A stretch of 20,407 nucleotides of DNA from a virus: positions 1-20,407 of the IMG/VR virus record IMGVR_UViG_3300033550_000158, one strand, 5' to 3'. The notes under the pieces are model-generated. The model was given only the letters and a program-made list of their open reading frames with translations. It was not told the DNA's origin and did no database searches. The position numbers and the translations under genes were made by a program. Positions within the stretch are counted from its first letter, which is position 1; every line of letters begins with the position of its first letter. This document shows, one piece after another, positions 126 through 20,182 of this stretch.

Positions 126-2339
126 GTGGACCTTTCGAGTTGTGGTACGCCAGAAGCTCGCCGCGACCGAGAGGTCTTCTTCCGTGGCGTCTTTGGAGCA
201 GGAGAAGGCATCATCTGCATAGGTGTATCCCCCGTCCCTCTACCTGGCACAAAACGGAAGTTGTACCGCAGGTACTTCAATTACCCAGGCGAGCTTAATT
301 CAGCACTCGACCTGATCGAAACGAACATCACTGTGGCAGACTTGTACTTCTGTCCACAACTCCTAAATGAACAAAACCTTCATAAGGGCGCAGTTGTCAG
401 TTGTCCTAACGCTTGGGCTGACCTTGATGATTGTACGCCCATCAAGTTGCTGGTACCACCTTCGATTGCCTGGGAGACATCTCCAGGACGATTTCAGGCC
501 ATCTGGCGACTAGATCCCAACCTCGATCCGTTAGAAGCGGAAGCGCTATCGCGTCGCATAGCCTACTATCACGCAGGCGATGGTGCTGATCGAAGTGGGT
601 GGGACCTCACACAGTTTCTCCGTGTCCCGAGAACTGGTAACTTCAAACACGTTGACGACCTCTCAGGTAACCCGGCAATCGTTCGAATCGTAACTGGTAC
701 GACGATCAAGTATCGACTCGCCGACTTTGAAAAGTATCCCGACGTTAAACGAGTCGAATTCCTTGAACTACCCCTTCCGTCAGTCATACCGACAGAAGAC
801 CCGTTGGAGATCATTCAACGGTACAGGCGGACAATCAGTCCACTTGTGTTCAGCTTGTTCGAGACAGAACCGCAGGGAACCTGGAGCGAGAAACTCTGGC
901 GCCTTATGATCCTATGCTTCGAAGCAGGCATGGAGATGCCAGAGGTTTTGCACATCGCAAACCAGTCTGCCTGCAACAAGTATCGTCGAGACGGTCGACC
1001 AATCGACTACCTCTGGCGAGACGTATGTCGTGCCTACGTTCGAGTTCAGCAGAACGCAGGTGCGGTAATCATTCCAGCAGCACCTCAAGTCGAACTCCTT
1101 ACGCCGGACGAGCAAAACAGTTCGCCCGGTGAAACGTTCATCGAGCGGTACATCAGGTGGGCAAGTGACCTAGGTGATGCCGCTCCGCAGTACCATACGG
1201 CTGGAGCGTTCATCGCACTTAGCTCCATCCTGTCAGGGCACGTACGTCTTCCGACATCATTCGGAACGATGGTACCTAACCTGTGGTTCATGATTCTTGC
1301 CGACACAACACTCACTCGGAAGTCCACGGCAATGGACATCGCTATGGACTTGGTCAACGACATCGACGATGATGTCCTCTTGGCAACCGACGGATCACTT
1401 GAAGGGATGATGCAAGCACTATCTACCCGTCCAGGTCAACCGTCAGTCTTCCTCCGTGACGAATTCAGCGGACTACTGGAGATGATGACGAAGCGTGACT
1501 ACTACGCTGGTATGGCAGAGATGCTGACCAAGCTGTATGACGGGAAGATTCAGAAGAGAATCCTACGGAAAGAAACTGTCGAGGTACGTGAACCGGTACT
1601 ACTCATCTTTGCAGGAGGCATCAGGAACCGCGTTCAAGCACTTCTGACAACGGAACATATCTCGTCAGGCTTCATGCCACGATTCGTATTCATCACGGCT
1701 GAGTCTGACGCTGCACGTGTTCGACCACTCGGGCCGCCAATGCTGGCTGACACGTCTAGACGTGACGGTCTTCTAGCAGAGCTGTCAAGTATGGTGGCTC
1801 ATTACCACGTGATCGACGGAACGCGAAACACAACCAAGAAGACCCAGGCAGAGCTTTCCCCAGCTGCTTGGGCAAGGTACAACAAGTTAGAGTCAGACAT
1901 GCTGGTCGCCGGCCTTGATTCCGAAAGGCCAGACCTCATGACACCTGTGTTCGATCGTTTGTCCAAGTCAACGTTGAAGGCTGCACTACTCATAGCAGCC
2001 TCACGTCAACGAGACGAAAGGGTTTGTGTTACTGAAGAGGACATCGTCGACGCGATTCGATTCACCGTTCAATGGCGAACGTACGCAATCGAGGTCATCA
2101 ATGGTGTGGGCAAGTCAGCTGTCGAACGTGATCTGGACAGAGTACTTGGATCCATCGTACGCGGTCCTGGTGTGTCTAGGTCACAACTCATGCGCAGCTA
2201 CCACCTGACAGCAAGACAGGCCGATGCCATCTTCGATACACTCATCCAGCGCGGACTGATTGCTATGTCAAGACTAGGTGGGACTACAACATTCATGCCG
2301 CTAGCACCGGCTAAGGACGACAGAAAGGTTGGGAAATGA
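126..2339 (+). CDS. PrimPol-DUF3987 type DNA primase-helicase
   Basis: This 737-residue replication protein probably primes and unwinds phage DNA. The N-terminal part resembles archaeo-eukaryotic (RepB/PrimPol) primases: WADLDD gives the metal-binding D99 and D101, SPGRF lies near 119-123, and the third acidic region is GWDLTQFLRVPRTGN (D160). The second half resembles DUF3987 helicase-like ATPases, with a deviant Walker A (ADTTLTRKST, 392-401) and a Walker B ending in DE (445-446). The last ~60 residues look like a winged helix that could bind DNA. GTG at 126 is chosen because the frame has a stop just upstream, no earlier start codon exists, and AGAGAGGGG lies 5 bases before it. An ATG at 124 in another frame closes after 32 codons. 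The stop overlaps the queC start (ATGA), so the two are probably translationally coupled. Family placement is by motif only. Confidence 0.8.
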   Translation: MDLSSCGTPEARRDREVFFRGVFGAGEGIICIGVSPVPLPGTKRKLYRRYFNYPGELNSALDLIETNITVADLYFCPQLLNEQNLHKGAVVSCPNAWADLDDCTPIKLLVPPSIAWETSPGRFQAIWRLDPNLDPLEAEALSRRIAYYHAGDGADRSGWDLTQFLRVPRTGNFKHVDDLSGNPAIVRIVTGTTIKYRLADFEKYPDVKRVEFLELPLPSVIPTEDPLEIIQRYRRTISPLVFSLFETEPQGTWSEKLWRLMILCFEAGMEMPEVLHIANQSACNKYRRDGRPIDYLWRDVCRAYVRVQQNAGAVIIPAAPQVELLTPDEQNSSPGETFIERYIRWASDLGDAAPQYHTAGAFIALSSILSGHVRLPTSFGTMVPNLWFMILADTTLTRKSTAMDIAMDLVNDIDDDVLLATDGSLEGMMQALSTRPGQPSVFLRDEFSGLLEMMTKRDYYAGMAEMLTKLYDGKIQKRILRKETVEVREPVLLIFAGGIRNRVQALLTTEHISSGFMPRFVFITAESDAARVRPLGPPMLADTSRRDGLLAELSSMVAHYHVIDGTRNTTKKTQAELSPAAWARYNKLESDMLVAGLDSERPDLMTPVFDRLSKSTLKAALLIAASRQRDERVCVTEEDIVDAIRFTVQWRTYAIEVINGVGKSAVERDLDRVLGSIVRGPGVSRSQLMRSYHLTARQADAIFDTLIQRGLIAMSRLGGTTTFMPLAPAKDDRKVGK

Positions 2340-3148
2340 CTAAGTACGATAGCGTTGCCATTTGCAGTGGCGGTCTCGACAGCTCAACTCTGGTCTACCA
2401 CATGGTCGACAACGGACTGCGACCGCACCTGTTGTCGTTCGACTACGGTCAGCGACACGTGAAGGAACTCGAGTACGCGGCGAACCTCGCAGAGCGTCTC
2501 GACTTGAAGTGGAACCGAATCGATCTGTCGGGCATCACGCAGCTGATCAGCAACTCGGCACTCACGTCGCAAGACAAGACAAGCCACCCAGAGATCCCGG
2601 CAAGGCACCGTGCAATCGAAGTTCCGGACGGACACTACGCCGAAGAGACCATGAAGGCCACGGTCGTACCGAATCGCAACATGATCATGCTGTCAATCGC
2701 GATCGGTGTCGCCGTCAGCAACAACTACCAGGAGATCGGCATCGGCGTCCACGGTGGTGACCACTTCATCTACCCGGACTGCCGTCCGAACTTCATCAGT
2801 CACATGAATCGTGTGGCTGAACTCGGCAACCTCGGCTTCGGCCCCTACGAGGAGGTCAAAGAGCCGGAATGGGGTGCTATGCCGTATGGTCTCATCAACG
2901 CTCCATTCCTCAACTGGACGAAGGCGGACATCGCCTATCGGGCACTCGAATTGAACTTACCACTGTTCGAGACGTGGAGCTGCTACAAGGGCGGCGAGAT
3001 CCACTGTGGACGATGCGGTACGTGTGTCGAGCGTCTCGAGGCCATCGACGAGGCCATCAAGCGGCACGAAGAGCGTGACCGGGACTTCATAGACTACACT
3101 CGATACCAAGACACCGAGTTCTGGAAGACGGCGGTGAAGGATGCCTAG
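2336..3148 (+). CDS. queC: QueC, 7-cyano-7-deazaguanine (preQ0) synthase
   Basis: QueC uses ATP and ammonia to turn 7-carboxy-7-deazaguanine into preQ0, the last step of preQ0 synthesis in the cytoplasm. The 270-residue protein has the N-type ATP pyrophosphatase P-loop SGGLDSS (11-17) close to the N-terminus. The C-terminal zinc site is complete: C216, C224, C227 and C230 in CYKGGEIHCGRCGTC. Length is close to ordinary bacterial QueC. There is no extra glutamine amidotransferase (Gat) domain of the kind fused to QueC in phages that make archaeosine-type DNA, so the product should stop at preQ0. The start overlaps the primase stop, and the end overlaps the 65-aa gene at 3141. Identification is firm. 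Confidence 0.96.
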   Translation: MTKYDSVAICSGGLDSSTLVYHMVDNGLRPHLLSFDYGQRHVKELEYAANLAERLDLKWNRIDLSGITQLISNSALTSQDKTSHPEIPARHRAIEVPDGHYAEETMKATVVPNRNMIMLSIAIGVAVSNNYQEIGIGVHGGDHFIYPDCRPNFISHMNRVAELGNLGFGPYEEVKEPEWGAMPYGLINAPFLNWTKADIAYRALELNLPLFETWSCYKGGEIHCGRCGTCVERLEAIDEAIKRHEERDRDFIDYTRYQDTEFWKTAVKDA

Positions 3149-3338
3149 GAAGCTGATCGGACGTCGCAAGTCTGCTGGCGACGTGATCATCGTCACACTA
3201 CGTGATGGCGACACATGGGAGGTGACAGGGGAATTCGTCACGATCTTCAACGACAAGGGCAACTCAGCGTTCCGGATCTACTCGGACGTTGTTCGCATCG
3301 TTGAGGTGGAAGTCGACGAAGAGCCGGTCTCTGTTTAA
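3141..3338 (+). CDS. 65-aa protein of unknown function in the preQ0 operon
   Basis: The gene starts with ATG inside the last codons of queC (8-base overlap) and ends 46 bases before queD. The protein is small and looks rich in beta strands: VIIVTLRDGDTWEV, GEFVTIF and VVRIVEVEVDEE alternate hydrophobic and polar residues, suggesting a small barrel such as an SH3- or LSm-like fold. The N-terminus is basic (PRKLIGRRK) and the C-terminus acidic. I do not recognise a family. Its position between queC and queD makes a link to base modification possible, but that is only guilt by association. Confidence 0.7.
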   Translation: MPRKLIGRRKSAGDVIIVTLRDGDTWEVTGEFVTIFNDKGNSAFRIYSDVVRIVEVEVDEEPVSV

Positions 3339-3357
3339 CTAGCTCCGCTCTTCAACA

Positions 3358-3384
3358 CAAACCACACACGGCGAGAGGAACGTA
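3358..3384 (+). promoter_or_regulatory. Leader/RBS element of queD, repeated upstream of the P-loop gene
   Basis: The 22 bases at 3358-3379 (CAAACCACACACGGCG then AGAGGA) match 10257-10278 at 21 of 22 positions; the only difference is G versus A inside the ribosome binding site. Each copy ends about 5-6 bases before an ATG (3385 and 10285), and each follows a non-coding gap, whereas most other genes here overlap their neighbours. The element therefore includes the Shine-Dalgarno sequence plus about 15 conserved bases 5' of it. It may be a conserved translational enhancer, protein-binding leader or promoter-proximal site. Confidence 0.7.
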
Positions 3385-3903
3385 ATGCCAAGATTTGGTG
3401 TTAAGAAGCACATCACCTTCGATGCCGGACATCGTGTGCCGGATCACGGAGGCAAGTGCTTCAGCCCGCACGGGCACACATACAAGCTCGAGCTCCACGT
3501 CAAGGGAAACGTACAGGTCGACGGCGTTGAGAACGGTATGGTTCTCGACTTCACACGGATCAAGGAGATCCTGACCGAGATTCACGACATGTTCGACCAC
3601 GCCTCGATCGCCTACGAGATGGACTGGCCCTATCTGGTTTCGCTCGGCGAAGCCAACTACTACGGGTTCGATGACCCCAGCGTGCCACCCGTTCTGATCG
3701 ATCGAGAGCGCGGCGACGAAAACCGCTACGGCTGGAAGGTCGCGGTTGTCCCGTTCGTGCCAACCGCTGAGAATCTCGCCCTGTGGTGCTTCGAGTACGC
3801 CACGAACAGATTCAAGGAGTTGAACTTGCCTGGAACGGTGACACGTGCTGACATCTGGGAGACGCCTACTTCGATGGCGTGCTTCCCTGTCAACGGCGAC
3901 TAA
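3385..3903 (+). CDS. queD: QueD, 6-carboxy-5,6,7,8-tetrahydropterin synthase
   Basis: QueD converts 7,8-dihydroneopterin triphosphate, made by FolE, into 6-carboxytetrahydropterin, the second step to preQ0. Zinc ligands H16, H29 and H31 are present in FDAGHRV and PHGHTY, with catalytic C25 in KCFSPHGH. The FDH pair (D71-H72), the PTAEN motif (126-130) and the pterin-binding E159 in WETPTS follow the family order. At 172 residues it is longer than typical QueD (about 120). The extra length falls around 75-120, between the DH and PTAEN motifs. ATG 3385 is preceded by GAGAGGAACGTA, part of the repeated leader element. The stop is followed at once by the 74-aa gene. Confidence 0.94.
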   Translation: MPRFGVKKHITFDAGHRVPDHGGKCFSPHGHTYKLELHVKGNVQVDGVENGMVLDFTRIKEILTEIHDMFDHASIAYEMDWPYLVSLGEANYYGFDDPSVPPVLIDRERGDENRYGWKVAVVPFVPTAENLALWCFEYATNRFKELNLPGTVTRADIWETPTSMACFPVNGD

Positions 3904-3904
3904 C

Positions 3905-4129
3905 ATGTCGGCAGGCTTCTTCCGCGTCAGCATCATTATCAAACCACCTCGGGCGAGGGCAAGCAAGGTCGTCACGCTACTCGTCCCAGACAATCTCCTC
4001 GAAGAAACGGACGGCAATGAGTTTCGCCGTAAGCGGGCCGAGGAGACTGTCGCAACATCGTTCGCCACCTTGTACGTGCAAGTCGTAAGGGCAGAGGAGC
4101 AACGTGCTACGCGTCGTCGAAAGGTATGA
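3905..4129 (+). CDS. 74-aa protein of unknown function between queD and queE
   Basis: An ATG one base after the queD stop opens a 74-codon frame that fills the gap up to queE and overlaps the queE start by 26 bases. The N-terminal half is hydrophobic and basic (FFRVSIIIKPPRARASKVVTLLVPDN). The C-terminal half alternates charges and ends in a basic ATRRRKV, so nucleic-acid or partner binding is possible. No strong ribosome binding site precedes it; translation may depend on coupling to queD. It would otherwise leave an unusual 200-base gap in a tightly packed operon. No family recognised. Confidence 0.6.
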   Translation: MSAGFFRVSIIIKPPRARASKVVTLLVPDNLLEETDGNEFRRKRAEETVATSFATLYVQVVRAEEQRATRRRKV

Positions 4130-4808
4130 CAGCTTCCAGGGTGAAGGACCCAACACCGGGAAGCCTACCATGTTCGTCCGCTTTGCCGGCTGCAACTTCA
4201 AGTGCGCCGGCTGGGCATGCGACACACAGCATGCCATCGATCCCAAGCTGTTCACTGTGACACAGCAAGTGCTGGATCCGCAAGTCCTGATCGATCGTAT
4301 CCTCGCCGACAGTAGTGCTGGCGGTGTCAACAACATCTGCTTCACCGGCGGCGAACCCTTCCTGCAGAGGCATGACGAGCTGCTGGAAGTGTGGTCGGCC
4401 CTCAAGGCTCGCGACCGTACGATCGAAGTCTTCACGAACGGTTCACTTGCGTGGCCGAACGTGGACTTGGTCGACAACATCATCTTGGACTGGAAGCTTC
4501 CAGGCTCAGGTGAATTCCCTGACGACAACTTCTTGCTGACGAACGTCGGCAAACTTGGTGAGAACGACGCCATCAAGTTCACGATCAAGAACCGTGCAGA
4601 CTTCGACCGCGCAATGGATAACTACCAAGTAGTTCGGCAGATGTACGAAGTCCTCGGTCGACCAAGCCCGCAGATCTGGTGTGGCCCTGTGTGGGGTGCG
4701 CTAACCGCTGAGAAGGTCGCGCGCTGGATCCTCGCAGCAGGTCTGCGGTGGCACTTGAACGTGCAGACCCACAAGTTCATCTTCGGAGCCGACACGCAAG
4801 GGGTGTAA
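4104..4808 (+). CDS. queE: QueE, 7-carboxy-7-deazaguanine synthase (radical SAM)
   Basis: QueE is a radical SAM enzyme that rearranges 6-carboxytetrahydropterin into 7-carboxy-7-deazaguanine. The N-terminal ERYDSFQGEGPNTG (6-19) is typical of the family. The iron-sulphur cysteines are C30, C34 and C39 in AGCNFKCAGWACDT. Spacing is therefore CX3CX4C rather than the usual CX3CX2C; QueE is known to tolerate variants here. The SAM-binding GGEP lies at 82-85, and EVFTNGS and DWKLPGSGE follow as expected. At 234 residues the length is normal. GTG 4104 is chosen because GAGGAG at 4094-4099 lies 4 bases upstream. Two bases after its stop lies the TTG of folE. Confidence 0.93.
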   Translation: MLRVVERYDSFQGEGPNTGKPTMFVRFAGCNFKCAGWACDTQHAIDPKLFTVTQQVLDPQVLIDRILADSSAGGVNNICFTGGEPFLQRHDELLEVWSALKARDRTIEVFTNGSLAWPNVDLVDNIILDWKLPGSGEFPDDNFLLTNVGKLGENDAIKFTIKNRADFDRAMDNYQVVRQMYEVLGRPSPQIWCGPVWGALTAEKVARWILAAGLRWHLNVQTHKFIFGADTQGV

Positions 4809-4810
4809 CT

Positions 4811-5464
4811 TTGTCCTCTTACTCCTCCTCCGCCCCCTTCGTCGGCGGAGAAAATCCCCCACCCACCGTACAGCAGATTACTAAGTGGCCTGACCCGGTA
4901 GTCGATTGGGCTCGGGAGGCGTTGCAGCACTATGCCGGCTTGGAACACGACGAGCACGGTGCCGACACGCCCAAGCGGTTCCTGGGCATGCTTGACGAAC
5001 TGACACAGTGTAAGGATGACTCACCCGAGCATCTTGAACTGTGCGTCAAGTGGAAGCAGTTCAAGAACGATAGCATGGACGAGATGATCGTCATGACGAA
5101 CATTCCGTTCGTGTCTTTGTGCAACCATCATGTGGTCCCATTTGTGGGCAAGGTACACGTAGCCTACATCCCCGGGACGACAATATGCGGACTTAGTAAG
5201 CTGGGTCGAGTAGTGCGCCACTTCGCCCGCCGACTGCAGTTGCAGGAACGCATGACCGAGCAGATCGCCTCCTTCCTCACCGACAGGCTTCAACCTCTCG
5301 GTGTGGCAGTCCAAGTCGAGGCCGAGCACCTCTGCATGACCATCCGGGGTGTGCAGCTTCCCGGCGCGTTGACGACGACCTCAAGCATGTGGGGCGTCTT
5401 TGGTGACCACAGCAGGACGGCCAAGGCAGAGTTCCTGCAGATCGTACAAGGAGGCAGAGCGTGA
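4811..5464 (+). CDS. folE: FolE, GTP cyclohydrolase I
   Basis: FolE opens GTP to 7,8-dihydroneopterin triphosphate, the entry step to preQ0 (and folate). With the TTG start the protein has 217 residues, close to E. coli FolE (222). The zinc site is intact: C104 and H107 in SLCNHH, and C175 in EHLC with H173 beside it. GLSKLGRVVRHFARR (127-141) and QERMTEQIA match the conserved family core, as does RGVQLPGALTTTS near the end. TTG 4811 is preferred over a GTG at 4748 because AAGGGG (4798-4803) lies 7 bases upstream and the extra N-terminus would only shadow queE. Its last four bases (GTGA) are the start of the next gene. Confidence 0.93.
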   Translation: MSSYSSSAPFVGGENPPPTVQQITKWPDPVVDWAREALQHYAGLEHDEHGADTPKRFLGMLDELTQCKDDSPEHLELCVKWKQFKNDSMDEMIVMTNIPFVSLCNHHVVPFVGKVHVAYIPGTTICGLSKLGRVVRHFARRLQLQERMTEQIASFLTDRLQPLGVAVQVEAEHLCMTIRGVQLPGALTTTSSMWGVFGDHSRTAKAEFLQIVQGGRA

Positions 5465-6286: not shown

Positions 6287-7069
6287 ATGCAACTTGCTCT
6301 GATTCCTCCCAAGGGGTTGGAGGCACGACTTCTCGATACGACAGCGCAGATGGCGCTTCCGATCGTCGCGCAGAACCCAACCTACGTCCAGACAATCAAC
6401 GCTGCCAAGAACCGCGGCGACTTCATCATGATGGACAACGGTGCAGCTGAGCACATGCCGATTCCGACGACGAAGCGCCTGTGTACACAGGCCCTATTGT
6501 TTGGTGCGGACGAGGTTGTACTGCCTGACGTGTTGTACGACGGCCCCAACACCATGCAACTCACGAGGCAGTTCTTCGACGAGTTGAAGTACCTCCCCAT
6601 CGAATTCAAGGGCGCACTGGCCTTCGCAGGTGTCGCGCAAGGGAAAAACATCAACGAGGCAAAGGTCACAATCACTGAGCTGGCCGAGATATCGTCCGTC
6701 GACACCATTTGCCTGCCTCGGCTCCTGATCTCGCAGCAGTACAAAGCCATCCGCATCGACCTCGCCGACTGGATCACGGAGAACTTCCCTGACCGGTTCA
6801 AGATCCACCTACTCGGTACCAGCCCGGTCTGGCCTGCCGAGATCCAAGCTGTGTCGCGGTACGCCAGGTACGTGCGATCGGTCGATACGTCACTACCTTT
6901 CAACTACGCCATCGCAGGCGTTCCGCTAGCACGTAAGTCCGTCCCACCCATCCACCGGCCCAGCACCTACTTCAGTGAGAGCTGGGCACGCATCATGAAC
7001 TACACGCTGCTACAGGCAAACATCAACACCATGCTGGAGTGGCTTGATGCAGAAGCACCCGTTGGCTGA
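6287..7069 (+). CDS. dpdA: DpdA-like 7-deazaguanine DNA transglycosylase
   Basis: DpdA is the phage relative of tRNA-guanine transglycosylase; it exchanges guanine in DNA for preQ0 or a related base. This 260-residue protein shows FIMMDNGAAE (46-55), ADEVVLPDVLYDG (74-86), FAGVAQGKNINEA around Q118-G119, IHLLGTSPVWP and RSVDTSLP (197-204), a series typical of the TIM-barrel phage TGT-like family. The four-residue zinc site of bacterial tRNA-TGT is absent, as is normal for short phage DpdA. AAGGGG six bases before ATG 6287 supports the start. It closes the row of preQ0 genes and overlaps the polymerase gene. Identification by motif and context is strong; which 7-deazaguanine it inserts is inferred from the pathway genes. 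Confidence 0.88.
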   Translation: MQLALIPPKGLEARLLDTTAQMALPIVAQNPTYVQTINAAKNRGDFIMMDNGAAEHMPIPTTKRLCTQALLFGADEVVLPDVLYDGPNTMQLTRQFFDELKYLPIEFKGALAFAGVAQGKNINEAKVTITELAEISSVDTICLPRLLISQQYKAIRIDLADWITENFPDRFKIHLLGTSPVWPAEIQAVSRYARYVRSVDTSLPFNYAIAGVPLARKSVPPIHRPSTYFSESWARIMNYTLLQANINTMLEWLDAEAPVG

Positions 7070-9377
7070 TTGTGACAAATGTCCTCTCTCGGATGAGAAG
7101 TACGTTCCATCCGAGATCCCTGACAATCCACGCCTCGTCGTCGTAGGCGAGGCTCCAGGCTTCCAGGAGGCTGTACGTGGCAGGCCGTTCACCGGCCCAT
7201 CGGGCCAGCTCCTCGACCGAGTCCTTAAGCACCATGGTTATCCCCGTCATCAGGTGGCGTATACCAATGTGGTCTCGTGTCGCCCTCAGAACAATGCGAC
7301 TCCTCCTAAGAGTGCGATTACTGCATGTCGAGGGCGGCTCATGGGAGAACTTGGACTCGTCGGAGTCCGTGATATCGTTGCACTTGGCGGGACGGCGGCA
7401 TCGGCTCTCGTTGAGGATTCGAGGGCAATTACCAACCTCCGAGTCGGTCCCCCTAAGGCCGCAACGCGGGGGTTATCCACAATTCCTGGTGCACGCGTTG
7501 TTGCAACATGGCACCCTGCCTATTGCCTTCGAACTCCGGACGCGTTCCCCTCACTCGTCACGGACATCGGCAAGCTAACGAGGAGAGACGTCGATGTATG
7601 GACTCCACCGACATGGCGATACTTTGACGACCCTGCTGATGCGCGACGAGCCATCGGAGAGTTGGCCCGTACAGCGGATCGACTTGTCGTGGACATTGAG
7701 GTCGGCATTGACAAGGACGTTAGTTTCGGCCACCCAAACGAGTACGATCTCCTATGCGTGGGACTCGCTTACGCAAAAGGAAAGGCAGTGGTACTTGGGT
7801 CTGGTGCACTTGCCGACAGGACTGTTCTGGATGACCTCGGGCAACTCCTACGCCAAACACGAATCATTGCTCATAACGGCAAGTTCGATCTGGCGGGACT
7901 TTTTCCGACACTCGGACCGTTGGAGCTCTGGTTTGATACCATGCTCGCCTCCTATGCCTTGGATGAAAGGCCGGGGCAGCACGGGCTTAAAGTCCTTGCA
8001 GTGGAACGTCTCGGCGCTCCGAAGTACGACGACGAAATCTTCCAGTTCATACCTAAAGGCGGAAACTACGCCGACATCCCAAGAGAGGTCCTCTACAGGT
8101 ACAACGCCTTCGACGTAGCTTGTACTTGGGACTTGTACGAGCTGTTTGAACCTGAACTCGAAGCTCAGGACCTCAGACGGGTTCATGACTACATGGTGGC
8201 TGCGTCGAACCAACTTATGTACCTCGAGATGAACGGCATCAAGATCGACAAGGAGTACAGCCGTAAGCTCGATGGCGAATACCTCCAGAGGCTGGAGGAA
8301 CTAGAGCAGGAGCTCGGAACGTATGTCAGTGCTGCCACCAACGGAGAAGTCGACTTTCTCAATCCGCGATCCCCTCAACAGATCAAACGATTCCTGGCTA
8401 GGTGTGGAATTAACGTTGGATCTACGGACGTGGATCACCTCACTCCCCTCCTGGCGCGGTTGGCTCCCGGACCGGTCCAGGATTTCGTGTCTGGGCTGCT
8501 ACGGCACAGACGCGAACAGAAACTCTACGGTACATATGTCAAAGGTATTAGAAAACGGCTGTACCGCGGTCGGGTGTATACAACTTACATGCTGCACGGA
8601 AGCACATCCGGACGGCTTGCTAGTCGCAATCCGAATCTGCAAAATATCGTGCGAAGTAAGGAGATCCGACGGCAGTTTACTGTCGCGAAGCCAGGCCATG
8701 TATTAATCCAGGCCGACTACAAGCAGGCCGAAGGACGCATCATCGCAACCATGGCACAGGACGAATACTTGCGCCGTGTGCTCAGCGATCCGGAGATCGA
8801 CATCTTCGATGACATGTCCGACCTACTCTACGGGCCAGGTAACTGGCGCAAGGAAGTCGAACGCATCAGAACGAAGGCGTACTTCTACGGACTGAGCTAT
8901 GGGCGTGAGGCATTCTCTATCGCCATGGAGTACAAGATCCCTGTCGCAGAAGCCGAACGCAGACTTCGGGAGTTCCGAGATCTGATTCCGGCAACATCGC
9001 GATGGCAACAGATGGTTCGCCAACAAGTCTTGGACGGTGAGGACCTTGTCACCCCATTTGGACGAAAGAGACGCTTCTGGCTCATCACCAAGGAGAACAA
9101 GAAGGACGTGCTCAACGAGGCCTTGTCCTTTTTGCCACAGTCCACTGCATCCGACATTTGCCTCGGGTCGCTGGTACATCTGCGTCCTATGCTTCGTGGT
9201 ATGGGATGGATCCGACTTACGATTCATGACGCTCTTGTCGTGGAGTGTCCCGAATCTCGTATTGACCAGGTGTCGGAGTTGCTGCGGCAAGCAATGGTCA
9301 GCGAGGCCGCTAAGTACACCGACTACGTACCGTTCCCGGTAGACATCTCAATCGGCACAACGTGGGGTGACCTATGA
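7047..9377 (+). CDS. UDG-PolA fusion: family A DNA polymerase with N-terminal uracil-DNA glycosylase-like domain
   Basis: This is the 776-residue replicative polymerase. Residues 1-180 match family-4 uracil-DNA glycosylases: four cluster cysteines (C9, C12, C78, C94), GEAPG (34-38), GRPFTGPSGQLLD and a TWHPAYCLR motif. A 3'-5' proofreading domain follows with all expected residues: D216-x-E218, N277...D281, and Y352-x3-D356. The polymerase domain has motif A ADYKQAEGR (D557), motif B R606-x3-K610-x3-Y614-G615, and motif C IHDALVVE (H727-D728). Y614 occupies the O-helix position that is Phe in E. coli Pol I. There is no 5'-3' exonuclease domain. ATG 7047 is preferred over TTG 7044 because GGAG lies 7 bases before it. 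Such fusions are known, for example in the SPO1 polymerase. The gene overlaps dpdA and the next gene. Confidence 0.93.
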   Translation: MQKHPLADCDKCPLSDEKYVPSEIPDNPRLVVVGEAPGFQEAVRGRPFTGPSGQLLDRVLKHHGYPRHQVAYTNVVSCRPQNNATPPKSAITACRGRLMGELGLVGVRDIVALGGTAASALVEDSRAITNLRVGPPKAATRGLSTIPGARVVATWHPAYCLRTPDAFPSLVTDIGKLTRRDVDVWTPPTWRYFDDPADARRAIGELARTADRLVVDIEVGIDKDVSFGHPNEYDLLCVGLAYAKGKAVVLGSGALADRTVLDDLGQLLRQTRIIAHNGKFDLAGLFPTLGPLELWFDTMLASYALDERPGQHGLKVLAVERLGAPKYDDEIFQFIPKGGNYADIPREVLYRYNAFDVACTWDLYELFEPELEAQDLRRVHDYMVAASNQLMYLEMNGIKIDKEYSRKLDGEYLQRLEELEQELGTYVSAATNGEVDFLNPRSPQQIKRFLARCGINVGSTDVDHLTPLLARLAPGPVQDFVSGLLRHRREQKLYGTYVKGIRKRLYRGRVYTTYMLHGSTSGRLASRNPNLQNIVRSKEIRRQFTVAKPGHVLIQADYKQAEGRIIATMAQDEYLRRVLSDPEIDIFDDMSDLLYGPGNWRKEVERIRTKAYFYGLSYGREAFSIAMEYKIPVAEAERRLREFRDLIPATSRWQQMVRQQVLDGEDLVTPFGRKRRFWLITKENKKDVLNEALSFLPQSTASDICLGSLVHLRPMLRGMGWIRLTIHDALVVECPESRIDQVSELLRQAMVSEAAKYTDYVPFPVDISIGTTWGDL

Positions 9378-9592
9378 TCGTACTCGGCGTTAGCCTTAAC
9401 GCCTGGCTGATTGCCCTCGTCAACTTCGTTCTGGCACTCTTCAACATCCTTGTCGTGTTCCTGATTGATCTGACTGAGACACGTACGCCAGGTTTGCACC
9501 GCCTGGGTACAGCTCACCCACGTCAGGAGCAGTACTACGTCGGACAGCGCCAGTACGTCCGAACAAAGCTTGGGAGACCGCCATATGCCTAG
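9374..9592 (+). CDS. Small single-span membrane protein
   Basis: The 72-residue protein starts in an ATGA overlap with the polymerase stop. A long hydrophobic stretch (about 8-31, LNAWLIALVNFVLALFNILVVFLI) is a clear transmembrane helix, followed by a polar, basic tail ending GRPPYA. No family recognised. Its place directly after the polymerase might point to membrane anchoring of replication, but nothing in the sequence proves that. Confidence 0.72.
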   Translation: MIVLGVSLNAWLIALVNFVLALFNILVVFLIDLTETRTPGLHRLGTAHPRQEQYYVGQRQYVRTKLGRPPYA

Positions 9593-9902
9593 AGGTCGCA
9601 CTAGCAAGCCTGGCGACACGATGGTCAATGCTAATGGCTACCACCACACGCGCACCACTGAAGGGTGGAGACTGACGCACCATCTTATCGCCGAGGCTAA
9701 GCTCGGTCGGCCATTGGGTCCTGGTGAAATGACACGGTTCGCGGATGGTGATCGTGCTAACCTCGACCCAGACAACATCGAAGTCTTCGAACGTGGGCGG
9801 GCGAGCATTCGTGCTCGCCTTGCCGTAATCGAGGCTCGGTTGGCCGAATTGTATGCCGAGAAAGCGAAACTAGAAAGGGAGCTCAATGGGCGTCCTAGAT
9901 GA
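9585..9902 (+). CDS. Degenerate HNH-type protein with C-terminal coiled coil
   Basis: GGGAG at 9572-9576 lies 8 bases before ATG 9585, giving 105 residues. Residues 13-67 follow the layout of phage HNH proteins: NGYHHTRTTEGWRLTHHLIAEAKLGRPLGPGE, then the hairpin, DGDRANLDPDNIEV. The usual catalytic His-His before the DGD turn is R51-F52 here, while N59 and N64 remain, so nuclease activity is probably lost. A charged heptad-rich helix (about 75-103) follows. It may serve as a DNA-binding protein derived from an HNH enzyme. It overlaps the genes on both sides. Confidence 0.75.
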   Translation: MPRGRTSKPGDTMVNANGYHHTRTTEGWRLTHHLIAEAKLGRPLGPGEMTRFADGDRANLDPDNIEVFERGRASIRARLAVIEARLAELYAEKAKLERELNGRPR

Positions 9903-10112: not shown

Positions 10113-10219
10113 ACCTGAGACGATCGAAGAGACCAGATAGAACGCTAGATAGACCAAAGGACTTCACGATCTAACGGCTTAGGTAAGCTTAGGGATCTTG
10201 CGATTCTAACTCGCGTCTA
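10113..10219 (+). promoter_or_regulatory. Repeated intergenic element, copy A
   Basis: This non-coding stretch shares four ordered blocks with 19113-19220 on the minus strand: ACCTGAGACGA (10113-10123), AGACCAGATAGA (10130-10141), AGATAGAC (10147-10154) and TCTAACTCGCGTCTA (10205-10219). Identity is 45 of 46 bases, with spacers of 6, 5 and 50 bases against 6, 4 and 52. AGATAGA occurs twice about one helical turn apart, as in a tandem protein-binding site. TAGAC can pair with GTCTA to close a structure, and a small GCTT/AAGC hairpin lies inside. It may act as a promoter/operator or a structured RNA leader. Function unknown. Confidence 0.75.
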
Positions 10220-10241: not shown

Positions 10242-10256
10242 TTCCGCACATCAAGG

Positions 10257-10284
10257 CAAACCACACACGGCGAAAGGAGCCAAG
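10257..10284 (+). promoter_or_regulatory. Second copy of the queD-type leader/RBS element
   Basis: Bases 10257-10278 repeat the queD leader at 3358-3379 with one change (AAAGGA in place of AGAGGA). The ATG of the P-loop gene is 6 bases further on. The gap from 10099 to 10284 otherwise holds only the repeated intergenic element and the small hairpin. Confidence 0.7.
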
Positions 10285-10743
10285 ATGCGTGACACAATGC
10301 AAGTCATTGTCACTGGTAGACAAGGAGGTAAGACAAGCGCTATTGTTGACTGGCTCCTCGAGGGTCACTCAATTGCACCGTACCCCGGCTGGTCGCGTGT
10401 CATTCTGTGCGCATCCCATCGGGAGGTCGTACGCGTGACGGGACTTGTCCGCGAAGCCACTGAAGGCTTTGAGCCCGGTACGTGGGCTGAGCTGACGATC
10501 GCCGACATCCGTAAGTGTGTTTGGAGCGTCGACGACTTGACAGGGGTAATACGGAGCGGACACGGCGCAATGCCTGGTATTCAGGTTGGCGTCGACGACG
10601 TCGATCTCGTCATTGCCAACATGTTGGGTTGGCAACCATCACTCATAACCATGACAGGAGAACTTCATGACATCAATCCCGAGGGACCCACTAATTCCGA
10701 TCAACAACCACTTCCAACACCGGCTACAGATTCCCAAACTTGA
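10285..10743 (+). CDS. P-loop phage protein of unknown function
   Basis: The 152-residue protein has a near-N-terminal phosphate-binding loop, TGRQGGKTS (10-18), of the deviant type seen in terminase-like and other phage ATPases, followed by WSRVILCASHREVVRV, which reads as the next strand and helix of such a fold. VGVDDVDLVIA near 110-120 could be a Walker B equivalent. The protein is too short for a full helicase or terminase and lacks other recognisable motifs. The C-terminal 25 residues are proline- and polar-rich and overlap the next gene by 77 bases. It starts behind the repeated leader element and so may head its own transcript. Confidence 0.72.
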   Translation: MRDTMQVIVTGRQGGKTSAIVDWLLEGHSIAPYPGWSRVILCASHREVVRVTGLVREATEGFEPGTWAELTIADIRKCVWSVDDLTGVIRSGHGAMPGIQVGVDDVDLVIANMLGWQPSLITMTGELHDINPEGPTNSDQQPLPTPATDSQT

Positions 10744-11227
10744 CACGGGCATCGTAGCTGTTGATCCTGGTCCTGGACTAGGTATCGCCACATTTCACCC
10801 GTGGCCTGCAGCATCACGTCAGCACTTCGACTCGATGACCTACTCGATCGGCCGGGACGGCCACAGCTACCTGGACATCATCCTCCGCGATCTGCGTGGG
10901 TACTTCTCCGGTATCGAGTTCATCACCCTGATCATCGAGAAGTTCGAGTTCCGGAAGGACGACGCCGAGTTCCGTGACCGGATCGACTTCACCGCAGCTG
11001 AGTACGTCGGCATCAGCAAACTCGTCGGATGGCGCGAGTACGACAGTACAGTGATGCAGGGCGCAGCTGAAGCGAAAGGGTTCTGGGACGCTACTAAAAT
11101 GCGGAAGCTGGGACTCTACGCACCAGGACAACGTCACGCCAACGATGCCATGCGACACCTACTGAAGTACATGGCATTCGATCGGAACCAGAAGTGGCTG
11201 TTCACACCCCTGAAGGACAAGTCATGA
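10667..11227 (+). CDS. RuvC-like Holliday junction resolvase (RNase H fold)
   Basis: This enzyme would cut four-way junctions during phage recombination and before packaging. The RNase H-fold acidic residues appear in order: D33 in GIVAVDPGPGLGIA, E91 in LIIEKFEF, and D160 in RHANDAMRHLLKY. Length (186) is near that of RuvC (about 173) and of phage RuvC-like proteins. ATG 10667 has AGGAG about 7 bases upstream; the first 20 residues precede the fold and overlap the P-loop gene's end. It shares an ATGA junction with the small membrane gene downstream. Confidence 0.82.
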   Translation: MTSIPRDPLIPINNHFQHRLQIPKLDTGIVAVDPGPGLGIATFHPWPAASRQHFDSMTYSIGRDGHSYLDIILRDLRGYFSGIEFITLIIEKFEFRKDDAEFRDRIDFTAAEYVGISKLVGWREYDSTVMQGAAEAKGFWDATKMRKLGLYAPGQRHANDAMRHLLKYMAFDRNQKWLFTPLKDKS

Positions 11228-11412
11228 CCCCAGAAGAGATGGAGGCCCTCGTCAACGAGGAAGAAGCCTCAGGTATGCGGCGCGACTACCTTATCGGCAG
11301 AGCCATCGGCTGGATCCTCGGCCTTGCAATGTTGTTCACCGTCTGTTCGTGCCTTGCCGGGCTGTTCTTCGTGGTCTTCCAGGACAGCGCCGGACTATTT
11401 CTACAACCGTGA
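11224..11412 (+). CDS. Small membrane protein, last gene of the rightward block
   Basis: ATG 11224 overlaps the resolvase stop (ATGA) and has GAAGGA 6 bases upstream, so it is preferred over a GTG at 11194. The 62-residue product has an acidic N-terminal arm (TPEEMEALVNEEEA), then a hydrophobic helix at about 28-52 containing two cysteines (CSC). No family recognised. Lysis-related or membrane-anchor roles are possible but unsupported. Confidence 0.7.
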   Translation: MTPEEMEALVNEEEASGMRRDYLIGRAIGWILGLAMLFTVCSCLAGLFFVVFQDSAGLFLQP

Positions 11413-11418
11413 AGATGG

Positions 11419-11473
11419 GCCGAGCCGGCCATCAAGAGGGACTCCGGCGGGAGGAGTTGATGACCGGCTCGGC
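11419..11473. terminator. Large hairpin between the convergent gene blocks
   Basis: Arms at 11419-11435 (GCCGAGCCGGCCATCAA) and 11457-11473 are complementary at 16 of 17 positions, with a 21-base loop that has its own short ACTCC/GGAGT pairing. The hairpin lies just after the last rightward gene and 64 bases beyond the stop of the last leftward gene, where a bidirectional terminator is expected. No T-run follows on either strand. A second small stem, GTTAC/GTAAC, lies at about 11475-11493. Confidence 0.65.
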
Positions 11474-11536
11474 TGTTACACGGGAAAAGTAACCTATTTG
11501 AAGTTGACTTACCTCAAAGGCCGTGTGGGGTTTGCG

Positions 11537-11839
11537 TTAGACCTCAGGAGGAGGTTTAACAGAGGTACTCACCTCGATCTGCTTGGTGATGTCCAGGTTC
11601 TTCGCCAAGCCGACATAAGTGCCGATCGCTGCGAAGAAGATGGTGAGGATGCTCGTCGTCAGGTTTGCGAAGTCGAGTCCGCCCTCGACCATCGCTGTGA
11701 TGACACCCGCCACGACCGCGTACAGGAATGTGACAGCGGATCGGACCTGCTTCGACCAGAATGGCTGCTGCAGGAGCGGGATGATGAAAATGGACGATAT
11801 GAAGCCAACGATGGCACTCCACATCATGGTGTTGCTCAC
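11537..11839 (-). CDS. Holin-like membrane protein
   Basis: The 100-residue protein has three likely membrane helices (about 7-23, 33-51 and 58-78) separated by the motif QQPFWSKQVRS, and a polar tail ending in KPPPEV. This pattern (helix, basic W-S-K loop, two more helices) is common in holins and holin-like membrane proteins of actinobacteriophages, often next to the tail genes. GTG 11839 lies behind an excellent GGAGGTGG and overlaps the upstream stop (GTGA). No endolysin gene is visible beside it, so the holin role is likely but unproven. Confidence 0.7.
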   Translation of the reverse strand: MSNTMMWSAIVGFISSIFIIPLLQQPFWSKQVRSAVTFLYAVVAGVITAMVEGGLDFANLTTSILTIFFAAIGTYVGLAKNLDITKQIEVSTSVKPPPEV

Positions 11840-18365: not shown

Positions 18366-19048
18366 TCACCTCCGGTTGCGCATTGCCTTCAACTTCGCAT
18401 CCAACTCGGCACGCTTGGCGTTCATGCGGTTGTTCTCCATCGACTGGGCTTCAGCATCCGCATCGAACACCGCTTGGAACAAGTGCATTAGATATGAATC
18501 TTGGTCGAGAAGTCCGCCAGAGTCGGGCAGTGTGCCCAGTTTCTCACACACCCGAACGAGCTTTAGGACTTCTCGGGCATCGTACTCGATGGGACGTTGG
18601 AGGACGATTCCGGCGCGGAGCCGGAAGGTGAGTTTTTTACCTCCTCGTCCTCCTCGAAGTTGTTCAGCTTGTCCATCCGGGACGAGATTTCCTCGCCGAT
18701 CTGCGCCGCCAGTAGCTCGACGTCCTGCTGGTTCTTGAAGTTGAGCGGCCGGATGGGACAGCTGCACTTGCCGGCATAGCAGTCGCTCTGCTCGGTGTGC
18801 TGCTGGTGTTCGAGGTTGTGCTCCAGGATCAGGTTGGCGAACTCCCAAAGCTGAACCTGCTTCTGCATCATGTTGATCTCGCCGACAGCGTCCTTATCCA
18901 CCTTGTTGGACAGGATCCGCATCTTGCCGGAGAGTTCCGCACGAGACAGCTTCTCGCCGTAGGTCATACGTCGTACGATGACGTATCCCCCCGGACAACT
19001 TGTCAGGTCGATCCTCTCGGTCTTCTTGACCAGGGTTGCAACTGGCAC
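18366..19048 (-). CDS. Tail assembly chaperone, long form made by -1 frameshift
   Basis: Ribosomes slipping back one base at 18632-18638 leave the short frame after 139 codons and read 88 more to the TGA at 18366-18368, giving a fusion of about 227 residues (equivalent to lambda gpGT). The added part begins LTFRLRAGIVLQRP, has a helical region, and ends in a charged helix, ...MNAKRAELDAKLKAMRNRR. The second frame has no start codon with a ribosome binding site near its functional part. Its own upstream frame (to 18848) reads as low-complexity shadow. The stop lies just before the tape measure start, in the standard place. Confidence 0.88.
18563..19048 (-). CDS. Tail assembly chaperone, short form
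   Basis: The 161-residue product is the zero-frame form of the tail chaperone that coats the tape measure during tail assembly (equivalent to lambda gpG). GTG 19048 is chosen because AGGGAGGA lies about 7 bases upstream; an ATG at 19177 has no ribosome binding site and adds a stretch that overlaps the intergenic element. The protein contains RRMTYGEKLSRAELSGKM, a Cys cluster (CYAGKCSC) and an acidic end (NNFEEDEEVKN) where the frameshift site lies. The zero-frame tail after the slip is short and polar. Confidence 0.85.
   Translation of the reverse strand: MPVATLVKKTERIDLTSCPGGYVIVRRMTYGEKLSRAELSGKMRILSNKVDKDAVGEINMMQKQVQLWEFANLILEHNLEHQQHTEQSDCYAGKCSCPIRPLNFKNQQDVELLAAQIGEEISSRMDKLNNFEEDEEVKNSPSGSAPESSSNVPSSTMPEKS
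18608..18638 (-). promoter_or_regulatory. Programmed -1 ribosomal frameshift signal
   Basis: On the minus strand the zero-frame codons are GTA AAA AAC, giving the classical slippery heptamer A-AAA-AAC at 18638-18632. After a 5-base spacer comes a perfect 7-bp stem: TTCCGGC (18626-18620), loop TCCGC, GCCGGAA (18614-18608). Heptamer, spacer and stem all match known -1 frameshift sites in phage tail chaperone genes. Confidence 0.92.
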
Positions 19049-19053
19049 TCTTC

Positions 19054-19070
19054 GTTCCTCCCTCAGGAAC
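19054..19070 (-). promoter_or_regulatory. Hairpin covering the chaperone ribosome binding site
   Basis: On the minus strand GTTCCT and AGGAAC form a 6-bp stem with loop GAGGG. The Shine-Dalgarno GAGGGAGGA is spread over the loop and 3' arm, and GTG 19048 follows 5 bases later. The hairpin could limit translation of the chaperone relative to the major tail protein upstream. Confidence 0.5.
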
Positions 19071-19106
19071 AAGACCCACCTAAACCAAATGGGCCAACCA
19101 ATGTCT

Positions 19107-19201
19107 ACCAGATAGACTCGAGTTAGACCTACAGAGGTCCAAGCTATACATAGAGCTACGAGGTTTAGGGTGTTCATCAGTCTATCTCGAGTCTATCTGG
19201 T
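19107..19201. repeat. 16-bp perfect inverted repeat after the major tail gene
   Basis: ACCAGATAGACTCGAG at 19107-19122 is exactly reverse-complementary to 19186-19201, with 63 bases between. Smaller pairings lie inside: a near-palindromic AGCTCTATGTATAGCT and a GACCT/AGGTC pair. The repeat overlaps element B. It may fold in the mRNA 3' of the major tail gene as a partial terminator or stability element, or act as a DNA site. Confidence 0.75.
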
Positions 19202-19220
19202 CTAACAGCTCGTCTCAGGT
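19113..19220 (-). promoter_or_regulatory. Repeated intergenic element, copy B
   Basis: On the minus strand this region carries the same four ordered blocks as 10113-10219: ACCTGAGACGA (19220-19210), AGACCAGATAGA (19203-19192), AGATAGAC (19187-19180) and TCTAACTCGAGTCTA (19127-19113). It lies between the major tail gene and the tail chaperone gene, in the sense direction of those genes. The gap 19049-19240 contains no convincing gene: it holds this element, the inverted repeat and the chaperone leader hairpin. Confidence 0.75.
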
Positions 19221-19240: not shown

Positions 19241-20182
19241 TTACGGTGTGATGTCGGCCTGCGTCTTCACGGCAATCTCGAACGCCTTCTGAGGCGAACC
19301 GCTGTCGAGGACTGCCTGGTAGTTAATCTGCGCCCGCAGCAGATCGCCTTGACCAGACAAACCGACTTCGTAGGATTCCTTGATTGCGGCCGGGATCAGC
19401 ATCGTGATGCTGTTGTTGGCCCCCTTCGACGCGATCAAGGTGATGCTCTGAGCCGTCACTGCCTTGAAGGCGTCGTAGTCAGTTCGCGTCAGGAAGTCGC
19501 GTGCCATCATCAGCGTTGTGGCACGCTCTCCGAGCTTGATGAAGTCCGCTCCGCGTCCGGTGTTCTTCAACCGGAACTGCGGCTCGCCGCCATCGTCGAC
19601 CGTGAACTCGAACGAGTCGGTGTCCGTTACCGGTGTGGCTGTCGGCACCTGGATTGCGTAGGTACCCATGCCGTACGGTGTGGTTGTCGGCCACGACGGA
19701 GTCGGAGCTGACTGCGTCGCTTCGCTGCGACCGATGATGGACACCGTGAAGATCAGGATGCCCTCGGCGATGCTGAACTTGTAGCCCGCCACCACACACC
19801 CGGTGTAGGCGAACACCTCGCCGTTGCGCACGATCGTGATAGAGAGCGTCTCCGCCGGCACAGCATCGGCGTTGCCGGTGAACGTGTACGTGAAGTTCAC
19901 CGCGCCGGACTTTACCACATCCAGTCGTGCTGCGTGCAGGAAGTACGCCACGAGGTCCTCGCGAGCGTCCATCTCGATGTCGCCAGCCGGGTGCTCGTTG
20001 CCGGCGACCGCATTGACGATGTCGACTGTCTGCCGGATCGGGCGACGGAACTGCGTCTCCTCCTGCATCGTGATCGACTCGTTGTTGATTGGCGCGAACA
20101 CCGTTGCGGCTTCGAACGTGCCAGATGTCGCCTCGAGAGCGACGCCGACGATGCCTCCACCACCAATGCCAGGACTGGTCAC
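19241..20182 (-). CDS. Major tail (tube) protein
   Basis: The 313-residue protein has the pattern of siphovirus tail tube subunits of the Phage_tube_2 type: N-terminal GGGGIVGVALEATSGTFEAATVFAPINNES, then QEETQFRRPIRQTVDI, and alternating beta strands to the end. It would polymerise around the tape measure to form the tail tube. Position directly upstream of the tail chaperone and tape measure genes is the canonical one. GTG 20182 overlaps the upstream stop (GTGA) and is preceded by AGGAGGGG. Codon use appears richer in G and C than in the minor tail genes, as expected for a strongly expressed gene. Confidence 0.85.
   Translation of the reverse strand: MTSPGIGGGGIVGVALEATSGTFEAATVFAPINNESITMQEETQFRRPIRQTVDIVNAVAGNEHPAGDIEMDAREDLVAYFLHAARLDVVKSGAVNFTYTFTGNADAVPAETLSITIVRNGEVFAYTGCVVAGYKFSIAEGILIFTVSIIGRSEATQSAPTPSWPTTTPYGMGTYAIQVPTATPVTDTDSFEFTVDDGGEPQFRLKNTGRGADFIKLGERATTLMMARDFLTRTDYDAFKAVTAQSITLIASKGANNSITMLIPAAIKESYEVGLSGQGDLLRAQINYQAVLDSGSPQKAFEIAVKTQADITP

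Follow-up and report, generated by a model that had tools for sequence, protein, structure and literature searches.

Two related elements in the window

The window, that is, the whole stretch of DNA analysed, is a virus record of 20,407 bases in which two similar segments, here called copies A and B, lie on opposite strands. The features that surround them are as follows.

9585-9902, + strand: gene of an HNH-fold protein of 105 residues without the catalytic histidine, the candidate binder of the element (PF13392 at 24.7 bits, cut-off 24.8)
10113-10219, + strand: element copy A, site c1 (model R1, 68.6 bits)
10285-10743, + strand: P-loop protein gene downstream of A (GRQGGKTS visible; no family match)
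10667-11227, + strand: gene with a DPGxxxG motif, assigned by sequence to phrog_1981 (unknown function)
18563-19048, - strand: gene downstream of B, a putative tail assembly chaperone by its position between tail tube and tape measure
19113-19220, - strand: element copy B, site c2, which follows the tail tube gene (R1, 68.3 bits)
19241-20182, - strand: tail tube protein gene upstream of B (PF18906, Phage_tube_2, E 5.9e-19)

The product of the gene at 10667-11227 is one which we take to be RuvC-like. A DNA polymerase A with an N-terminal uracil-DNA glycosylase domain is encoded at 7044-9377 (+), its Pfam domains being UDG (E 1e-27), exonuclease and DNA_pol_A. The rightward and leftward gene blocks converge at 11412-11537.

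Copies A and B share, in order, the blocks ACCTGAGACGA, AGACCAGATAGA, AGATAGAC and TCTAACTCG(N)GTCTA. The four-block match described in the initial annotation was reproduced, with 45 of 46 positions identical, the order kept and the spacing nearly kept. The pair is the top-ranked inverted repeat in a repeat search of the window, and its global alignment score is 29, against a mean of 3.4 (sd 1.8, maximum 15) for 2000 dinucleotide shuffles of B. Both copies had been placed in true non-coding gaps and in the sense direction of their own operons, and both statements hold. A contains no coding sequence. In the case of B, the ORF list gives an open reading frame (18563-19177) whose ATG start falls within the copy, but this start is doubtful, and the GTG at 19048 is the likely start codon, because the downstream protein is colinear with its G002 counterpart, which begins MPVATIIKK after the element. 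Each copy ends approximately 65 bp upstream of the likely start codon of the following gene.

Geometry and placing of the array in relatives

The DNA around A and B had no match in cultured phages apart from one 28-base chance match, and neither the tail tube nor the RuvC-like protein had a match among cultured phages. The window polymerase has cultured-phage relatives at less than 60% identity only, and a scan of genome contigs for a host, using the polymerase alignment, found no relative. In IMG/VR, the polymerase as a single protein query gave 11 loci, and 80 were kept when an alignment of eight served as query. Three other records are near-identical to the window over the overlap and do not constitute independent evidence. 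The order of genes after the polymerase is conserved, with small genes, a short HNH-like gene, a non-coding gap and a P-loop or RuvC-like gene; the element within this gap defines site c1. The model R1, built from nine copies of the element, found additional copies (three in G002, five in G008) and at E<=0.01 matched 17 of 38 records in one further set and 5 of 24 in another. Three to five intergenic copies per genome are present in G002, G008, G021, G031, G066, G073 and others. The initial annotation had made its proposal depend on further copies and conservation in related phages, and both were found among the IMG/VR relatives.

A set of 54 copies was curated by hand from the hits of a half-site scan that takes no account of pairing (score >= 26.2). 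Lower or ambiguous hits, such as L130 and the copies at 54740 in G016 and 40070 in G020, were left out of it, and the proximal half-site of several hits with gaps of 60-62 was re-anchored by hand beside the AAAGGAAT motif. The half-sites of the two window copies are listed below, those of B as read from its sequence.

10117-10121, + strand: A half-site 1, GAGAC (offset -33 from the proximal half-site)
10129-10133, + strand: A half-site 2, GAGAC (offset -21)
10138-10142, + strand: A half-site 3, TAGAA (offset -12)
10150-10154, + strand: A half-site 4, TAGAC, proximal (offset 0)
10156-10162, + strand: A central motif AAAGGAC, conserved after the proximal half-site
10193-10203, + strand: A motif GGATCTTGCGA, common to G002 copies c1 and c3
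10204-10208, - strand: A inverted half-site 5, TTCTA on the + strand, 49 bp after half-site 4
10215-10219, - strand: A inverted half-site 6, GTCTA on the + strand, assigned by sequence and offset class
19212-19216, - strand: B half-site 1, GAGAC
19200-19204, - strand: B half-site 2, TAGAC
19191-19195, - strand: B half-site 3, TAGAC
19180-19184, - strand: B half-site 4, TAGAC, proximal
19124-19128, + strand: B inverted half-site 5, 51 bp after half-site 4
19113-19117, + strand: B inverted half-site 6

Across the 54 copies, the element of about 100 bases is a rigid array of KAGAC half-sites. Its front module holds up to four of them, at 0, 11-12, 20-21 and 32-33 bp, and two more lie beyond a gap. 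Half-sites in the same direction as the proximal one were recorded at offsets -11/-12 (39 hits), -20/-21 (19) and -32/-33 (21), while copies with an inverted front pair have them at -23 (13) and -34 (13). The proximal half-site is followed by the motif AAAGGAAT/AAAGGAC, and behind the centre the second half-site stands +10/+11 bp from the first (44 hits). The centre measures 39 (5 copies), 40 (19), 49 (6), 50 (15) or 51 bp (9, one of which is the mis-anchored copy G21a, with a gap of 39 by reading), and no other value occurs in 54 of 54 copies. The two classes, 39-40 and 49-51 bp, differ by one turn of DNA. The short class comprises one clade plus L130, and the one-turn change arose at least twice, with two changes on the polymerase tree and two on the HNH tree. 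Changes of module order number four on the HNH tree against five on the polymerase tree, which are small numbers.

The orientation of the modules is itself variable. By reading, they are direct in L085, L092, L094 and L148, everted in L036, L091 and L127, and both reversed in L082, and the changed orientations keep the spacing near 50-52 bp. In the early-arm arrays of G050 (41006-41140) and G064 (41683-41795) the half-sites all point the same way and the centre spans about 39-40 bp, against 50 at c1 of the same two genomes.

A Rayleigh test on the offsets singled out no 10.5-bp period, its strength climbing up to 13 bp, because the offsets fall into no more than two or three clusters; the case for helical phasing is drawn from the offsets themselves and the one-turn gap classes. 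This is the geometry that would be expected for proteins bound to one face of B-DNA. The suggestion of a DNA-binding protein, first made from TAGA repeats one helical turn apart, has thus gained strong support, there being KAGAC half-sites at fixed helical spacing in 54 copies.

According to the codon-model gene caller, from which all strand assignments were taken, the genes form two arms, which run apart from one region and meet at another. In G021, G066 and G073 the gap between the diverging arms contains copies of the element, and in G031 the distance to it is no more than about 0.35 kb; in G016 and G020 this gap has weaker hits to the element. The copies that could be placed number 41 (the other 13 of the 54 are in records outside the mapped set). 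Of these, 23 are sense, 7 antisense, 3 divergent and 1 convergent, while a called ORF overlaps the remaining 7; the ORFs in the overlapping and convergent cases are small or over-extended. The counterpart of B in G002 is c2, each of the two lying directly 3' of the tail tube gene (313 residues in G002), and this position is used in 9 of 15 mapped records. The same place is occupied in G008, G016, G021, G031, G063, G066 and G073, where a gene of 418-425 residues is taken, by its size and order, to be that of the tail tube. No copy was found after the tail tube gene in G003, G009, G010, G020, G050 and G064, three of which are records of 35-43 kb.

The placed c1 and c2 copies are on the same strand as the preceding HNH or tail tube gene, an agreement that hints at directionality and counts against an orientation-free array. 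The element as a whole does not keep to one orientation in the manner of stoperators. Seven of the 11 early-arm copies outside c1 are antisense (G2c3, G16b, G20b, G21b, G31b, G63c and G73b) and four are sense (G3c3, G8c5, G8c6 and G66a), and G2c3 and G3c3 occupy one gene pair in opposite orientations. These observations bear on the earlier idea of a shared phage promoter or promoter-operator for the downstream genes. The sense position of A and B shortly before likely start codons, and of c1 and c2 in the relatives, is what such a function would call for. Nevertheless, sigma-70-like pairs number 1 per region, against 1.1 and 0.7 expected, and none falls inside A or B, in a scan confined to promoters of the sigma-70 type. 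Together with the antisense early-arm copies this weakens the promoter claim, to which we give a slim chance.

A replication origin was considered as well, in which the arrays would act as initiator-bound iterons and each genome would have several origins. The helical spacing of the half-sites is iteron-like, c1 sits in the block of replication genes, and the cumulative GC-skew minimum lies <=0.3 kb from one copy in G008, G016, G031 and G073 and <=0.5 kb in G066. However, the minimum falls where the gene arms diverge, which can by itself explain the proximity, and the remaining copies of every genome lie at other places, including one among the tail genes. Origin function as the general role of the arrays is in our judgement improbable, whereas an origin at the GC-skew minimum of G008, G016, G031 and G073 is possible. 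The loci of these four records are L071-L073 (G008), L174-L176 (G016), L149-L151 (G031) and L155-L157 (G073).

Pairing of the two arms

The TAGAC/GTCTA pairing of the element had also been read as a sign of RNA structure. Such a structured regulatory RNA would pair its arms within the downstream gene's leader and serve as an attenuator, a processing site or a protein-binding RNA. Copy B, G002 c1, L034, L037, L039 and L040 do fold far below shuffles (z -3.7 to -7.2), but A, L036, L038 and L041 have z values of only -1.4 to +0.1. In an alignment of nine sequences, 10 of 16 pairs vary on both sides, with a covariation of 0.375 against 0.156 when shuffled, in a set biased to pairing since several of its members were found through an inverted-arm search. 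The covariance check was positive within this set. Own arms outpair arms swapped within the same genome (mean -24.5 against -22.6 kcal/mol in 37 copies; 16 of 5000 permutations as low). The ranks are mixed, with 13 of the 54 copies first among all arms and 16 placed 38th or lower out of 54. Roughly half form near-perfect hairpins, and the others pair no better than swapped arms.

Orthologous copies flip between the two states, A being poor where G002 c1 is perfect and B perfect where G002 c2 is poor. Direct and everted module orders are incapable of forming the stem, and the antisense early-arm copies would place it on the strand opposite to the genes, although the sense c1 and c2 copies are in keeping with a leader RNA. 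A stem kept by compensatory change in all members was not found. In the window, the Rfam scan returned no match at the gathering score and the tRNA scan was empty. RNA as the general explanation was dropped in view of the unpaired copies, the direct and everted orders and the antisense copies; the structured-RNA reading has support in no more than about half of the copies and does not stand as the conserved feature, and we regard it as an improbable account of the element.

Because of the switching of states, the direct and everted modules and the antisense copies, we consider the constant feature to be a protein-binding DNA array and not an RNA fold. The hairpin would be a secondary feature, favoured by selection at a subset of copies or produced incidentally where template switching perfects inverted repeats. 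The better pairing of own arms is not predicted by a pure binding-site model without some palindrome-perfecting process. In L095 (12985-13067) and L141 (6797-6879) the arms pair out of register, with TAGCC/GGCTA replacing TAGAC/GTCTA, and look as if the local palindrome had been re-made by template switching. Near-perfect hairpins may thus arise on protein-binding arrays, putative in the present case, and mislead RNA predictions.

A candidate partner protein and possible function

The gene that precedes c1 specifies an HNH-fold protein of 98-124 residues with a match to HNH_3 (PF13392), at 36.8, 31.3 and 37.4 bits in three members (cut-off 24.8). It is present in 45 of 81 sequences examined, the window included, and as one gene per genome in each of 16 mapped records. 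G015, G020 and G066 have a second HNH_3 hit; G050 has none by Pfam, yet its protein aligns. The second H of the HHxD motif is the catalytic histidine of this family. Phenylalanine occupies this column in 26 of 26 aligned members (xFxD), whereas cultured-phage relatives have HH at the same column in 4 of 4. Judged from the alignment, the HNH-fold protein has lost its catalytic histidine and is predicted to be nuclease-dead. Its AlphaFold model (mean pLDDT 89) ends in a 28-residue helix, through which the protein probably dimerises as a coiled coil. The best PDB match of the model is the HNH homing endonuclease I-HmuI (E 0.28, probability 0.85), and viral models named HNH match it down to E 1.7e-7.

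Gene and element occur together. Among the scanned records, R1 matched (E<=0.01) 31 of the 43 that have the HNH-fold gene and 0 of the 29 that lack it, a count that includes near-duplicates and, among the gene-less records, some short fragments, and that leaves out the window-like fragments L003 and L006, which do not reach the gene, seven loci ending inside the polymerase, and L033, the window's own sequence. This linkage is confounded by descent, the gene-less records being also more distant in polymerase. The dead-HNH protein is the most likely candidate for the binder of the array.

An HNH-fold gene adjoining one copy, and several copies per genome, could also be expected of a homing target, that is, of small selfish palindromes spread by an HNH endonuclease. 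The candidate protein does resemble HNH_3 homing endonucleases such as I-HmuI in fold. It differs from them in the missing catalytic residue, in its long C-terminal helix and in its one conserved locus, and the same stations are kept in phages whose polymerases are only about 57-78% identical to that of the window. A mobile element of this kind is very improbable.

The reading we prefer, and to which we give roughly even chances, is that the element is a phased DNA docking array for the dead-HNH protein that most likely controls transcription. Paired KAGAC half-sites one turn apart, at fixed helical distances, would let several subunits share one DNA face, with subunits of the one phage protein sitting on both sides of the 39-51 bp centre. 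The dead-HNH protein, encoded just before c1, would load the arrays at stations close to where the arms diverge, within the early arm, and downstream of the HNH and tail tube genes. Loaded arrays may then control transcription as stoperator-like roadblocks or linked operators, a role that would fit best because the array tolerates either orientation and occurs inside operons as well as at the divergent region.

A bolder and unlikely version is that of a dead homing endonuclease turned genome organiser, whose coiled-coil dimers would bridge stations and so loop early, replication and late genes apart from one another. If true, this would amount to a centromere- or insulator-like system, of which no description in phages is known. 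A search of 18 records revealed no tyrosine (PF00589) or serine (PF00239) recombinase and no ParB family gene, and lysogeny, recombination and P1-type partition are therefore unsupported. Integron attC sites have the boxes GTCTAAC/GTTAGAC; they were dropped as a candidate identity since the box order is opposite and the tyrosine recombinase is lacking.

The docking array has partial likenesses among known systems. In P1 parS and in plasmid iteron origins, phased boxes flank a bendable centre and the site lies beside the gene of the binding protein. The element likewise has phased boxes on both sides of a centre and a candidate binder gene adjacent to it, but the 18 records are without ParB, unlike the P1 system, and there are several stations per genome. 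Stoperators, as in Cluster A mycobacteriophages, are short asymmetric sites that occur singly and bind an immunity repressor. The element resembles them as a set of scattered phage-genome sites for one phage-coded DNA-binding protein (putative here) and differs in being a phased array of about 100 bp, with three to five copies per genome and no recombinase in 18 records. The repressors of these phages are described as terminating transcription elongation at many sites (PMC9283540).

The ESAS of Cluster K mycobacteriophages are imperfect 17-bp inverted repeats with a consensus for each subcluster and of unknown function (PMC3203893). The vast majority have spacers of 4-13 bp, the repeats adjoin a 13-bp start-associated sequence and, as with the element, they are conserved before the same genes (PMC3203893). 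By comparison, the element has a centre of 39-51 bp, half-sites in KAGAC pairs and antisense copies. The 17-bp dyad repeats of Cluster O (Corndog) are characterised as having no clear orientation to transcription (PMC4351075), a trait in which the element resembles them. There, a terminator-like hairpin is placed after the major tail subunit gene, which is the position of the element after the tail tube gene; unlike the element, however, the Corndog repeats are simple palindromes that number over 30 in a genome, some of them inside genes (PMC4351075).

Dispersed phage repeats bound by one protein, or thought to be so, are thus already known in stoperators, ESAS and Corndog. No description of the element or of a dead-HNH phage regulator was found in a literature search that had most subscription papers outside its scope, nor was a printed precedent found for a phased array of many half-sites at a few conserved stations with a linked dead-HNH gene. 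What began as a two-copy oddity has become a family-wide rigid DNA element with a testable candidate partner protein. Should the dead-HNH protein bind it, a selfish nuclease would have been tamed into a DNA-binding regulator, and gene control would become approachable in a group of phages that has no close cultured member.

Several other features were seen in the course of this work. In the window, genes for QueC, PTPS (QueD-like), radical SAM (a match just under the cut-off) and GTP cyclohydrolase I stand in a row at 2336-5464 (+). By their sequences they likely encode a 7-deazaguanine (preQ0) route, which suggests that the phage DNA may be modified. A second leader repeat (86% over 36 nt) places AACCACACACGGCGAnAGGA before two start codons, at 3344-3379 and 10243-10278 (+). 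In many of the related records a CCACAGGGC-type motif lies 11-45 nt upstream of the gene that follows c1; the motif is over-represented in gaps, with 11 of 15 hits in the 12% of G002 that is non-coding and 7 of 8 in the corresponding 9% of G009.
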